DNA of 6,384 nucleotides from Anaerolineales bacterium (GTDB lineage: Bacteria > Chloroflexota > Anaerolineae > Anaerolineales > Villigracilaceae): NCBI GenBank assembly GCA_025938055.1, contig JAICQC010000271.1, positions 1 to 6,384 of the forward strand, in the 5' to 3' direction. The notes beneath the pieces are model-generated. The model was not told the origin of the DNA. It saw nothing but the letters and a program-made list of their open reading frames with translations, and did no database searches. Of this stretch, positions 3,976 to 5,963 are shown in pieces; the first letter of the stretch is position 1, and every line of letters begins with the position of its first letter. The position numbers were made by a program, and so were the translations under genes.

Positions 3976-4077
3976 ATGTACATAAGTAGACAAGTATACA
4001 GGTATACAAGAAAACCAATCCTTCACATGCCTACATATTTACCTGTGTATTTGTATACCTGCTTGCTTACGCCATGA
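3976..4077 (+). CDS. 33-residue small ORF linking pseB to the reductase
   Basis: The ORF starts at ATG 3976, seven bases after a strong Shine-Dalgarno GGAGGG (3963-3968) that lies inside the last pseB codons. It runs 33 codons to TGA 4075-4077, which overlaps the reductase start as ATGA. The whole ORF consists of the TATAC-rich inverted repeat, giving a Tyr-, Leu- and Pro-rich peptide that begins MYISRQVYRYTRKP and ends YTCLLTP. It resembles no family I recognise. The reductase has no Shine-Dalgarno of its own, so this ORF offers a plausible way for ribosomes to reach it by termination and reinitiation. Whether the peptide itself matters is doubtful. The open frame across a repeat could also be chance. 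Confidence 0.4.
   Translation: MYISRQVYRYTRKPILHMPTYLPVYLYTCLLTP
3986..4070. repeat. TATAC-rich inverted repeat in the pseB-reductase gap
   Basis: CAGGTATACAA (3999-4009) is repeated exactly inverted as TTGTATACCTG (4051-4061). The arms extend imperfectly outward: GTAGACAAG (3986-3994) faces CTTGCTTAC (4062-4070), with four extra bases TATA in the left arm. Between the arms, TTACCTGTGTA (4039-4049) is a degenerate further copy of the same word. The palindrome ATGTACAT (3976-3983) precedes it. Base composition and word use differ sharply from the flanking genes. It looks like a dispersed or inserted repeat and could form a long hairpin in RNA just before the reductase start. Confidence 0.55.
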
Positions 4078-4988
4078 AACTCTTGATCACCGGTGCAAGC
4101 GGATTGCTTGGGATCAACCTCGCGATGGAAGCCCTGCGCGAGCATGAAGTCGTTGGGGTCGACCGCGGCAAGTTGAAGTCTGCTCCGTTTCAGGTGATCC
4201 AGGCTGATTTTCTTCAAAGGAACACCATTGACTCTATCCTCAGTACCATGCAACCCGATTGGCTGATCAACTGTGCTGCGCTGGCAAATCTCGAGAAGTG
4301 CGAGGTAAACCCGCAACAGGCAAAAGTACTCAACATAGACCTGGCTGGAGAACTGGCAGCCTCCTGTGCAAAAAGAAATATCCGCTTCGTCCATATCTCT
4401 ACCGATGCGGTCTTCGATGGCACAAAAGAAGGCTTTTACACGGAGGAGGATGAGTCGAGTCCACCCGGTGTATATTCACAAACCAAACTGGATGGCGAAT
4501 GCGCGGTTCAGGAAGTCGATCCGCAAGCCATTATTGCCCGCGTCAATTTTTATGGCTGGTCGTTAGGCGGACGACGAAGCCTCGCTGAGTTCTTTGTCAA
4601 CAATTTGAGCGAAGGCAAAAATGTTAACGGCTTTACCGACGTCATTTTTTGCCCGATGCTGGTCAACGACACTGCTCGCCTGCTGCTCGAAATGCTCCAG
4701 AAGGAGTTGAGCGGTTTGTATCATGTGGTCGGCGCGCAGCCGATGAGCAAGTACCAGTTCGGGATGGAGATTGCGCGTAGGTTCGGGTTGAGAGAAGACC
4801 TGATCTCGCCGCGCTCGGTCGAAGAGTCGGAGTTGACCGCCAAACGTTCCCACAATTTATGGCTGTCCATCCACAAACTATCCACAGATCTGGGACACGA
4901 AATCCCCGCCTTCTCCACAGGTTTGGCGGAGTTTTATACACAGTTCCAGCAGGGTTATCCACAGAAAATCAGGAGTTATCAACATTAA
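4074..4988 (+). CDS. RmlD-like NAD(P)-dependent sugar-nucleotide reductase
   Basis: This 304-residue extended SDR resembles dTDP-4-dehydrorhamnose reductase (RmlD/RfbD), which reduces the C4 ketone of a nucleotide-linked 4-keto-6-deoxy sugar. The cofactor loop is GASGLLG (7-13), beginning immediately after the start as usual. PDWLINCAALANLEKCE (61-77) matches the RmlD NAD(P)-side motif. STDAVFDG (109-116) and YSQTKLDGE (134-142) give the catalytic Thr110/Tyr134/Lys138 set. Length is normal for the family. Its substrate is uncertain. It may reduce the 4-keto product of the PseB-type neighbour, giving a 6-deoxy-HexNAc, rather than a dTDP sugar; no RmlA, B or C genes are visible here. There is no Shine-Dalgarno in the 20 bases before ATG 4074; the start overlaps the stop of the small ORF at 3976-4077. 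The last 120 bases of the gene carry several DnaA-box-like words in more than one reading frame. Confidence 0.82.
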   Translation: MKLLITGASGLLGINLAMEALREHEVVGVDRGKLKSAPFQVIQADFLQRNTIDSILSTMQPDWLINCAALANLEKCEVNPQQAKVLNIDLAGELAASCAKRNIRFVHISTDAVFDGTKEGFYTEEDESSPPGVYSQTKLDGECAVQEVDPQAIIARVNFYGWSLGGRRSLAEFFVNNLSEGKNVNGFTDVIFCPMLVNDTARLLLEMLQKELSGLYHVVGAQPMSKYQFGMEIARRFGLREDLISPRSVEESELTAKRSHNLWLSIHKLSTDLGHEIPAFSTGLAEFYTQFQQGYPQKIRSYQH

Positions 4989-5071
4989 ACGCCGCTTCAA
5001 AGGTGATTTGCTCACATATTCTCCCAAGCTTATCTCCAGAAGAGAGCGACTTATCCACAGGATTATCCCCA
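4867..5071 (+). promoter_or_regulatory. Cluster of DnaA-box-like direct repeats (TTATCCACA)
   Basis: The 9-mer TTATCCACA occurs exactly at 4955-4963 and 5051-5059, and TTATACACA, which fits the TTATNCACA consensus, at 4934-4942. Words with one mismatch are CTATCCACA (4878), TTCTCCACA (4911), TTATCAACA (4976) and TTATCCCCA (5063). Weaker ones are CCATCCACA (4867) and TTATCTCCA (5030). All lie on the + strand. Starts at 4934, 4955 and 4976 are exactly 21 bp apart, as are 5030 and 5051, and most other gaps are near multiples of the helical turn. The better sites share a G after the ninth base. The cluster spans the reductase 3' end, the 82-bp spacer and the DUF4260 start. Known DnaA binding to this word in other bacteria supports a DnaA site; function here is inference. 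Confidence 0.55.
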
Positions 5072-5439
5072 TGAAAAACCTTCTCCGGCTCGAAGAGCTC
5101 CTATTGTTTGGTCTTTCCCTGTTCCTTTTTTCTCAACTGGATTACGGATGGGGATGGTACGCGCTCTTGTTCCTGGCGCCCGATCTGAGCATGGTTGGCT
5201 ACCTGGCGAATCCACAGGTCGGCGCGTGGACCTATAACCTGGTCCATCACAAGGGACTTGCGGTGGCACTTTATGTGCTGGGCTACCTACTCTCAGTCCC
5301 GTGGCTGATGTTCGCAGGGACGATCCTGCTCGGACACTCCAGCCTCGATCGTGTCTTTGGGTATGGACTGAAATACGAGGACGCGTTCCAGAATACACAT
5401 TTGGGCAAAATTGGAAACAGAAGGAAGGATATTCAATGA
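5071..5439 (+). CDS. DUF4260 family small membrane protein
   Basis: The product is a 122-residue hydrophobic protein with the look of DUF4260 proteins: LLRLEELLLFGLSLFLFSQL at the start, LFLAPDLSMVGYLANPQVGA (33-52), YNLVHHKGLA (55-64), then a hydrophobic stretch and GHSSLDRVFGYGLKY (88-102) followed by FQNTHLGKIG. Three to four membrane segments are apparent, roughly residues 9-23, 29-45, 62-76 and 77-92. Conserved Asp, His and Arg residues (D38, H59, H89, D93, R94) could face a common site. The family has no function known to me. The ATG at 5071 is chosen over the in-frame TTG at 5008 because the family begins right at LLRLEE and because AGGA (5059-5062) stands eight bases upstream. That Shine-Dalgarno is fused to the DnaA-like word at 5051. 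The stop overlaps the next gene's start (ATGA), implying coupled translation. Confidence 0.8.
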   Translation: MKNLLRLEELLLFGLSLFLFSQLDYGWGWYALLFLAPDLSMVGYLANPQVGAWTYNLVHHKGLAVALYVLGYLLSVPWLMFAGTILLGHSSLDRVFGYGLKYEDAFQNTHLGKIGNRRKDIQ

Positions 5440-5963
5440 AACCAGAGCGATTAGCCAGAAACATCGTCTATCAAAGCCCGTGGGTAAATCTTTACCTGGA
5501 TACGGTGAAATTTCCAAATGGCCTTTTGATCGAGAAGTTCCATTTGCTGGATTTCCCCCGCGCAGCAGTGACCGCCATTGTGGAAGATGATTCAGGAAAT
5601 ATTCTGTTTACTCGTATTTGTCGTTACACCAGCAGTACGACGGAATGGGAATTGCCCGCCGGAGGAGTTGAGACAGGTGAGACTGAAATTGAGGCTGCCA
5701 AACGCGAGGTATTGGAAGAAACAGGTTATACCTCGGATCATTATGAATTGGTCTATTCTTATTACCCGATGAATGGAAGCGCTAACAAGGTTTTCCATGT
5801 TGTCTGCTGCATAGCAATTGACCATATACAGGATTTTGACAAAAATGAGGTCAGCGAGGCGCGATGGTTTACAAGGGATGAGGCGAAGCAGATGATTGAA
5901 GATAAAGTTATTACGGATGGCTTTACCTTGACTGCATTATTGTTATGGTTACGAGACAAATAA
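5436..5963 (+). CDS. NUDIX hydrolase, ADP-ribose pyrophosphatase-like
   Basis: This 175-residue protein carries a complete NUDIX box, G76-x5-E82-x7-R90-E91-V-x-E94-E95-x-G97-Y, which binds the catalytic Mg2+ and cleaves nucleoside diphosphates linked to another moiety. The preceding WELPAGGVE and the N-terminal strand region (YQSPWVNLYLDTVKFPNG) resemble ADP-ribose/ADP-sugar pyrophosphatases of the NudF type. This suggests hydrolysis of ADP-ribose or a nucleotide sugar in the cytosol, though substrate cannot be assigned from the box alone. ATG 5436 is chosen because AAGGAAGG (5421-5428) lies at ideal spacing, the NUDIX domain begins soon after, and the start overlaps the DUF4260 stop (ATGA). 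The frame is open further upstream to a GTG at 5301, but that stretch is only a shadow of DUF4260. Confidence 0.9.
   Translation: MKPERLARNIVYQSPWVNLYLDTVKFPNGLLIEKFHLLDFPRAAVTAIVEDDSGNILFTRICRYTSSTTEWELPAGGVETGETEIEAAKREVLEETGYTSDHYELVYSYYPMNGSANKVFHVVCCIAIDHIQDFDKNEVSEARWFTRDEAKQMIEDKVITDGFTLTALLLWLRDK

Follow-up and report, generated by a model that had tools for sequence, protein, structure and literature searches.

A profile search of eight proteins encoded in the window, which is the whole stretch of DNA analysed (6.4 kb), identified it as part of a surface-glycan locus. Its genes specify a Capsule_synth protein, two methyltransferases, a Polysacc_synt_2 protein, an RmlD-like (dTDP-4-dehydrorhamnose-reductase-like) SDR, and DUF4260, NUDIX and GDPD proteins. 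The nearest matches of the window SDR were proteins and loci from Anaerolineales MAGs, and the relatives used throughout this analysis are mostly MAGs.

The 3' end of the SDR gene and the DNA behind it carry an array of words resembling the DnaA box TTATCCACA (Table 1). The initial annotation had reported seven words within one mismatch of this sequence in about 200 bp, all in one orientation and two of them perfect. A recount gave seven within 4878-5071, every one on the plus strand, starting at 4878, 4911, 4934, 4955, 4976, 5051 and 5063 and separated by steps of 33, 23, 21, 21, 75 and 12 bp, with the perfect copies at 4955 and 5051. Also correct were the two weaker words in the cluster (4867 and 5030) and one outside it (GAATCCACA at 5208), each with two mismatches, the exact 21-bp steps 4934/4955/4976 and 5030/5051, and the placement of the words in different reading frames of the SDR gene (two by the recount) and then beyond its stop codon. 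The G said to follow the better 9-mers is found at that place in 294 of the 377 boxes at 71 loci described below. The proposed longer direct repeat, 4955-4984 against 5030-5059, stood only in part: 21 of 30 positions are identical, but the likeness is weak and lies mostly in the boxes at both ends, and the pair is absent from the output of a repeat search of the window, which reported no repeat. When the window was simulated 2000 times with a first-order model, the largest same-strand cluster per 205 bp was 2 words, compared to 7 in the window itself, and a chance origin of the cluster was rejected (0/2000 simulations with more than two words). In the window, the ribosome-binding and start region of the DUF4260 gene is overlapped by the last two boxes (5051-5073), and similar spacing is seen in the related loci L001 and L003. 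The word found 12 bp after the preceding box, as at window 5063, is TCATCCACA in L001 and TTATCCACA in L003.

Table 1. Features of the array, its neighbours and the candidate origin (window coordinates unless a locus or genome is named)
Feature	Position	Strand	Remarks
RmlD-like SDR gene (dTDP-4-dehydrorhamnose-reductase-like)	4074..4988	+	Pfam PF04321, E=7e-61; 3' end holds in-gene part of array
Weak DnaA-box-like word CCATCCACA	4867..4875	+	Two mismatches; L003, L008 and L043 carry CTATCCACA here
DnaA box CTATCCACA, in-gene, codons L-S-T	4878..4886	+	Codon bias at L269, S270, T271
DnaA box TTCTCCACA, in-gene, codons F-S-T	4911..4919	+	S281 TCC in 36/38
DnaA box TTATACACA, in-gene	4934..4942	+	T289 ACA in 28/30
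DnaA box TTATCCACA, in-gene, codons G-Y-P-Q	4955..4963	+	P296 CCA in 39/39 vs 16% background
DnaA box TTATCAACA, in-gene, last codons	4976..4984	+	S301 AGT in 27/27, Q303 CAA in 31/31
Weak word TTATCTCCA, intergenic	5030..5038	+	Two mismatches; 21 bp ahead of 5051
DnaA box TTATCCACA, intergenic	5051..5059	+	Counterparts in L001 and L003
DnaA box TTATCCCCA	5063..5071	+	Final base is the A of the DUF4260-gene ATG
DUF4260 gene, directly 3' of SDR	5071..5439	+	PF14079, E=7e-45; different genes at this place in many relatives
Candidate oriC, spoVS/dNK-like locus	L055 7900-8240; L057 8040-8420; L138-L153, L184-L203		DnaA boxes mostly in both directions
Array-spoVS distance (kb)	G179 228; G341 330; G117 237; G027 354; G235 155		
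Array-spoVS distance (kb)	G270 197; G001 359; G002 74; G003 418; G226 106		

Relatives found with the SDR as query carry in-gene words at the same places, and many have extra words after the stop codon. The 71 unique Anaerolineales loci together hold 377 words in the direction of the gene and 4 in the opposite direction (377/381 one way). Three or more words were present in 66 of the 71 loci, at least two within the gene in 69, and at least two behind the gene in 32; in some species boxes are found only within the gene. Among 20 loci of distant relatives, whose SDRs are 56-63% identical, L221 had no word, L206, L209 and L220 had two, and the other sixteen had three or more. Three of these 20 loci were already in the set. 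Six loci with identical gene ends were removed as duplicates in reaching 71. The 71-locus count and the 58-gene recoding described below were made without the truncated L034 and L036 and without the non-Anaerolineales loci L044-L047; the partial genes L040 and L048 are in the former and outside the latter, while L037 (three words) and L038 (none) are in both counts and outside the codon-column analysis. In L044-L047, from Acidobacteria and Nitrospira relatives, there were 1 to 5 words each per 16-21 kb, and nowhere in these segments did three words fall within 300 bp. Together with the bias in synonymous codons described next, the presence of at least three words in 66/71 loci indicates conservation beyond what coding demands. 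The array is old, and it is under selection at the level of DNA, not protein.

The initial annotation had held that codon use does not explain the cluster, and two analyses bear this out. In an alignment of 39 homologues, the eight codon columns with the strongest synonymous bias, out of 235, all lie within boxes, and mean bias was 1.30 bits in box columns (n=21) versus 0.33 elsewhere (n=214). Pro296 is encoded by CCA and Ser301 by AGT without exception (39/39 and 27/27), compared to gene averages of 16% and 11%. Random synonymous recoding, using each gene's own codon use in 2000 trials, gave a mean of 18.9 and a maximum of 33 words when applied to the final 48 codons in each of 58 genes; the number observed was 201, and 2 of the 58 gene ends had no word. 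The remainder of the same genes held 22 words versus 15.7 expected, which is close to expectation. Codon use was rejected as the source of the cluster on both the column bias and the recoding. Just upstream of the boxes, R258, S259 and L262 are biased too. The word GTTCCCACA, at window 4846-4854 and 32 bp before 4878, falls on the likewise biased codons R258 and S259; perhaps it is a further weak site in register.

Boxes behind the gene shift place between species, and their spacings keep a period of about 10.6 bp. At this period R was 0.89 for 86 spacings and 0.90 for 65 spacings representing 22 distinct patterns. Removal of the 20-24-bp steps left 26 spacings, for which R was still 0.90, a value reached by none of 2000 random sets. 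With this register the boxes occupy a single face of the helix, and nearly all of them point one way. The geometry of the array is under selection.

The position of the array upstream of, and aligned with, the genes that follow it would suit a role for DnaA as a transcription regulator, in which the boxes control downstream genes (DUF4260, NUDIX, NeuB-like and others) and thereby link the making of surface sugars with the cell cycle. The start-codon region of the DUF4260 gene is where the last box ends in the window and also in L001 and L003. Among relatives, however, the next gene differs: mechanically called ORFs behind the SDR include DUF4260, NUDIX, a 547-aa protein and a NeuB-like synthase, the last read from sequence. 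The next gene begins anywhere from about +10 to beyond +270 from the SDR stop codon, while the in-gene boxes stay where they are. In L017, L021, L035 and L043, three or four in-gene boxes are kept although the next ORF is less than 40 bp away. Since the downstream genes vary, promoter control is disfavoured, and we consider this reading unlikely. Some local control of the DUF4260 gene is possible, given that the last box ends at its start codon in the window, L001 and L003.

In the ten genomes counted there are 15 to 70 exact copies of TTATCCACA per genome, against 2 to 18 of the reversed word. In 1.6 Mb of sampled genome, with the array not included, no 300-bp stretch outside the candidate oriC (described below) held more than two same-strand words. 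Phased pairs of boxes are concentrated at two loci. With pairs sorted to loci by coordinates, the first 16 genomes searched (~66 Mb) contain 46 pairs, with 34 at the SDR gene, 7 at spoVS and 5 elsewhere; another 20 genomes, most of them chosen for their large contigs, contain 50, with 28, 14 and 8 in the same places. The reversed pattern was found 0 times in both genome sets. In these 36 genomes 83 of 96 phased pairs thus fall at the two loci and 13 at neither, so that the cluster is exceptional genome-wide and is not repeated at many unrelated sites. A dispersed repeat family was rejected on this distribution and on the maximum of two same-strand words per 300 bp in the sampled 1.6 Mb outside the candidate oriC. 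Across 400 genomes of the order, a triple pattern was present in 114 and its reverse in 0; by coordinates, the triple lies at the SDR gene in at least 52 of the 114 genomes, and others have the look of origin clusters belonging to different families.

Several of the remaining sites deserve separate mention. A similar phased pair lies elsewhere in three of the first 16 genomes (G008:C16:148082, G010:C78:47023 and G011:C3:36227), and the same three are without a box cluster at spoVS; this pair may be the oriC of that lineage, perhaps a relocated origin. At G345:C121:38712-38762 there are 21-bp units in tandem with TTATGCACA in each. On a 15-kb contig (L056, G002:C6), four boxes at 8726-8812 are arranged as two 12-bp pairs, and the ORFs of this contig look phage-like.

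The second of the two loci adjoins a deoxynucleoside-kinase-like (dNK-like) gene and spoVS in G001 and G003, where the cluster includes a CCCATATATGGGG / CCCCATATTTGGGG palindrome; in G001 it lies about 414 kb from dnaA. At least three boxes were found at spoVS in 13/16 and 14/20 genomes of the two sets and fewer than three in 9/36. Of these 27 clusters, 25 have boxes facing both ways and 2 have boxes facing one way. By its skew and box layout, the spoVS cluster is a candidate for, and likely is, the oriC of Anaerolineales. GC skew, to which the initial annotation had pointed as a guide to the origin, was informative in some genomes only: the array is not at the minimum in G001 and G179, and sampled skew is too weak or noisy in G341, G002 and G003 to place oriC. 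In 2.5-kb bins of G001, skew changes from mostly negative to positive at the spoVS cluster. As sampled, the cumulative minimum of this genome falls between 669 kb and 736 kb. The spoVS cluster is found at 746 kb, the array lies at 1105 kb, and the five 20-kb samples taken between the two are all positive. G179 is a single contig of 3.97 Mb. Here skew is negative in five 4-kb pieces from the interval between array and spoVS cluster, though one 20-kb piece from that interval is slightly positive (+0.015), and the contig start is positive; this is consistent with a switch at spoVS, less sharply than in G001.

The density of the boxes might suggest that the array itself serves as origin of the chromosome, or as a second one. 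The array of G003 contains 8 same-strand words, compared to at most 5 per 300 bp at spoVS, and the sampled skew of G341 is compatible with a minimum at the array. Against this stand the skew of G001 and, in the five 4-kb pieces, of G179, a local minus-to-plus flip at only 2 of 26 array loci, and the one-way boxes of the array as opposed to the two-way boxes of most spoVS clusters. Because the skew switch coincides with a different box cluster in G001 and, with less sharpness, in G179, the array is probably not oriC, and we regard a role as a second origin, too, as very improbable.

In ten of the 36 genomes, a single contig carries the boxes of both loci. The distance from array to spoVS in these is 74-418 kb, a range biased to short values since six of the ten distances come from incomplete contigs that carry both loci. 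On the near-whole-chromosome contigs of G179, G117, G341 and G027 it is 228, 237, 330 and 354 kb. None of the four exceeds about 16% of the half-chromosome; were places random and independent, which is not fully the case, this would happen with a chance of about 7e-4. Four further genomes have spoVS on one contig with a more distant SDR homologue that has no phased pair, and here the distances along the contig are ~184 (G137), 885 (G187), 1410 (G240) and 2765 kb (G318), which would be smaller if the contigs are circular. The array may lie near oriC because the synteny of the glycan locus was inherited. Judged from coordinates and the shorter arc, the SDR gene is co-directional with the replication fork in 8 of the 10 genomes and opposed to it in 2 (G235 and G226), so the boxes have no constant direction with respect to the fork.

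An ori-proximal, old array with a phased, filament-like layout could also serve as a DnaA-dependent anchor for chromosome organisation or segregation rather than as a regulator of initiation. We know of no cited case of a DnaA-dependent segregation anchor of this sort, and we give this reading very little weight. A DARS-like site, recharging DnaA with ATP, would likewise fit a cluster of DnaA boxes that lies apart from the candidate oriC; in the DARS core, as described in PMC5742627, box I is opposite to boxes II and III, whereas 377/381 words of the array point the same way, which makes this the most doubtful of the chromosomal roles considered. A plasmid iteron origin was rejected: the arrays of relatives are on chromosome-size contigs, there is no Rep domain among the eight window proteins, and a sequence search with window 4780-5460 gave no plasmid match.

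The reading that we prefer, at a probability of roughly two in three, is that the array is a chromosomal DnaA-binding site near but separate from oriC, working like datA or the DnaA-box clusters of B. subtilis. It is partly encoded in the 3' end of the RmlD-like SDR gene and in many species continues into intergenic DNA. Of the four roles offered by the initial annotation, the datA-like one is favoured, because the array is conserved beyond coding demand, exceptional genome-wide and near the candidate origin; those of origin, iteron array and promoter control are disfavoured. In our proposal, DnaA monomers would bind head to tail along the array and form a short ordered assembly. Being near the candidate oriC, the array would be copied early, and its doubling after initiation would soak up or inactivate DnaA. 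With less DnaA available, a second initiation would be restrained, as is the case with datA in E. coli and as has been proposed for the B. subtilis clusters. The DnaA proteins of six relatives contain the GGRDH(T/S)TV stretch, which we take to have a role in box recognition. More tentatively, an element controlling the initiator may be built into a protein, with the in-register boxes constraining the codons, and perhaps the residues, of the C-terminal tail of the reductase (STD, FSTG, YTQ, GYPQKIRSYQ); the array might support a DnaA filament, assembled head to tail along a single face of the helix without a bending protein, and transcription of the sugar gene across the array might strip or reload DnaA, coupling surface-glycan expression to replication timing.

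To our knowledge, little is known of initiation control beyond a few model bacteria. We found no open-licence paper joining Anaerolineae, oriC and DnaA box, nor one joining Chloroflexi, replication origin, DnaA boxes and GC skew, and Chloroflexota went unnamed among the matches listed. An ancient, helix-phased array under measurable DNA-level selection would offer a test of whether one-direction arrays near oriC generally prevent re-initiation. It would also exemplify how the coding end of an enzyme can be shaped by a regulatory element unrelated to it. Because the array is so regular in geometry, it would be a well-defined substrate for structural work on DnaA assembled on duplex DNA. What is unusual about the array is that a large part of it falls within the coding end of an RmlD-like reductase.

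Plasmid iterons are same-direction repeats about two helical turns apart, as in the array. Unlike them, the array is chromosomal, its unit is the canonical DnaA box, and no Rep gene is present in the window. Other parallels are found on bacterial chromosomes. In E. coli and Salmonella, DnaA boxes are enriched near the origin, which PMC12371093, in the part available, argues to favour titration; that enrichment is a broad shift in density over several centisomes, whereas the array is one phased stretch of 200-300 bp. Clusters near oriC similar to datA are reported in B. subtilis and Streptomyces in the accessible text of PMC4585315 and PMC5295017. According to the latter, a review, B. subtilis clusters with significant roles had not been identified, and it refers to Okumura 2012 for early initiation after deletion of all six DnaA-box clusters. 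These clusters resemble the array in having several boxes near oriC (the candidate oriC here); they differ in being six separate clusters, with a strong effect only if all are removed, while the array is the one main cluster per genome besides the oriC candidate. DnaA also binds in vitro inside B. subtilis genes, among them codV, rplB and yhcA (PMC4447404), and these regions are like the array in lying within coding sequence. Those listed bind DnaA more weakly than the intergenic clusters, and the available part of PMC4447404 mentions neither phased arrays nor codon constraint for them. There is also a likeness to datA of E. coli, a box cluster outside oriC (for the array, outside the candidate in G001 and G179) and near it. 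As set out in the accessible parts of PMC5742627 and PMC4585315, the essential boxes of datA share one direction, which is taken to reflect head-to-tail contacts of ATP-DnaA, datA is doubled early owing to its position near oriC (PMC5742627), and its relative distance from oriC is conserved in E. coli (PMC4585315). The locus for datA-dependent DnaA-ATP hydrolysis is non-coding and requires an IHF site, placed between key boxes, whereas the array lies partly within a protein gene, with at least two boxes inside the SDR gene at 69 of 71 loci, and has a regular 10.6-bp register. We do not class the array as datA, and propose that it acts in the manner of datA or a DnaA-box cluster.
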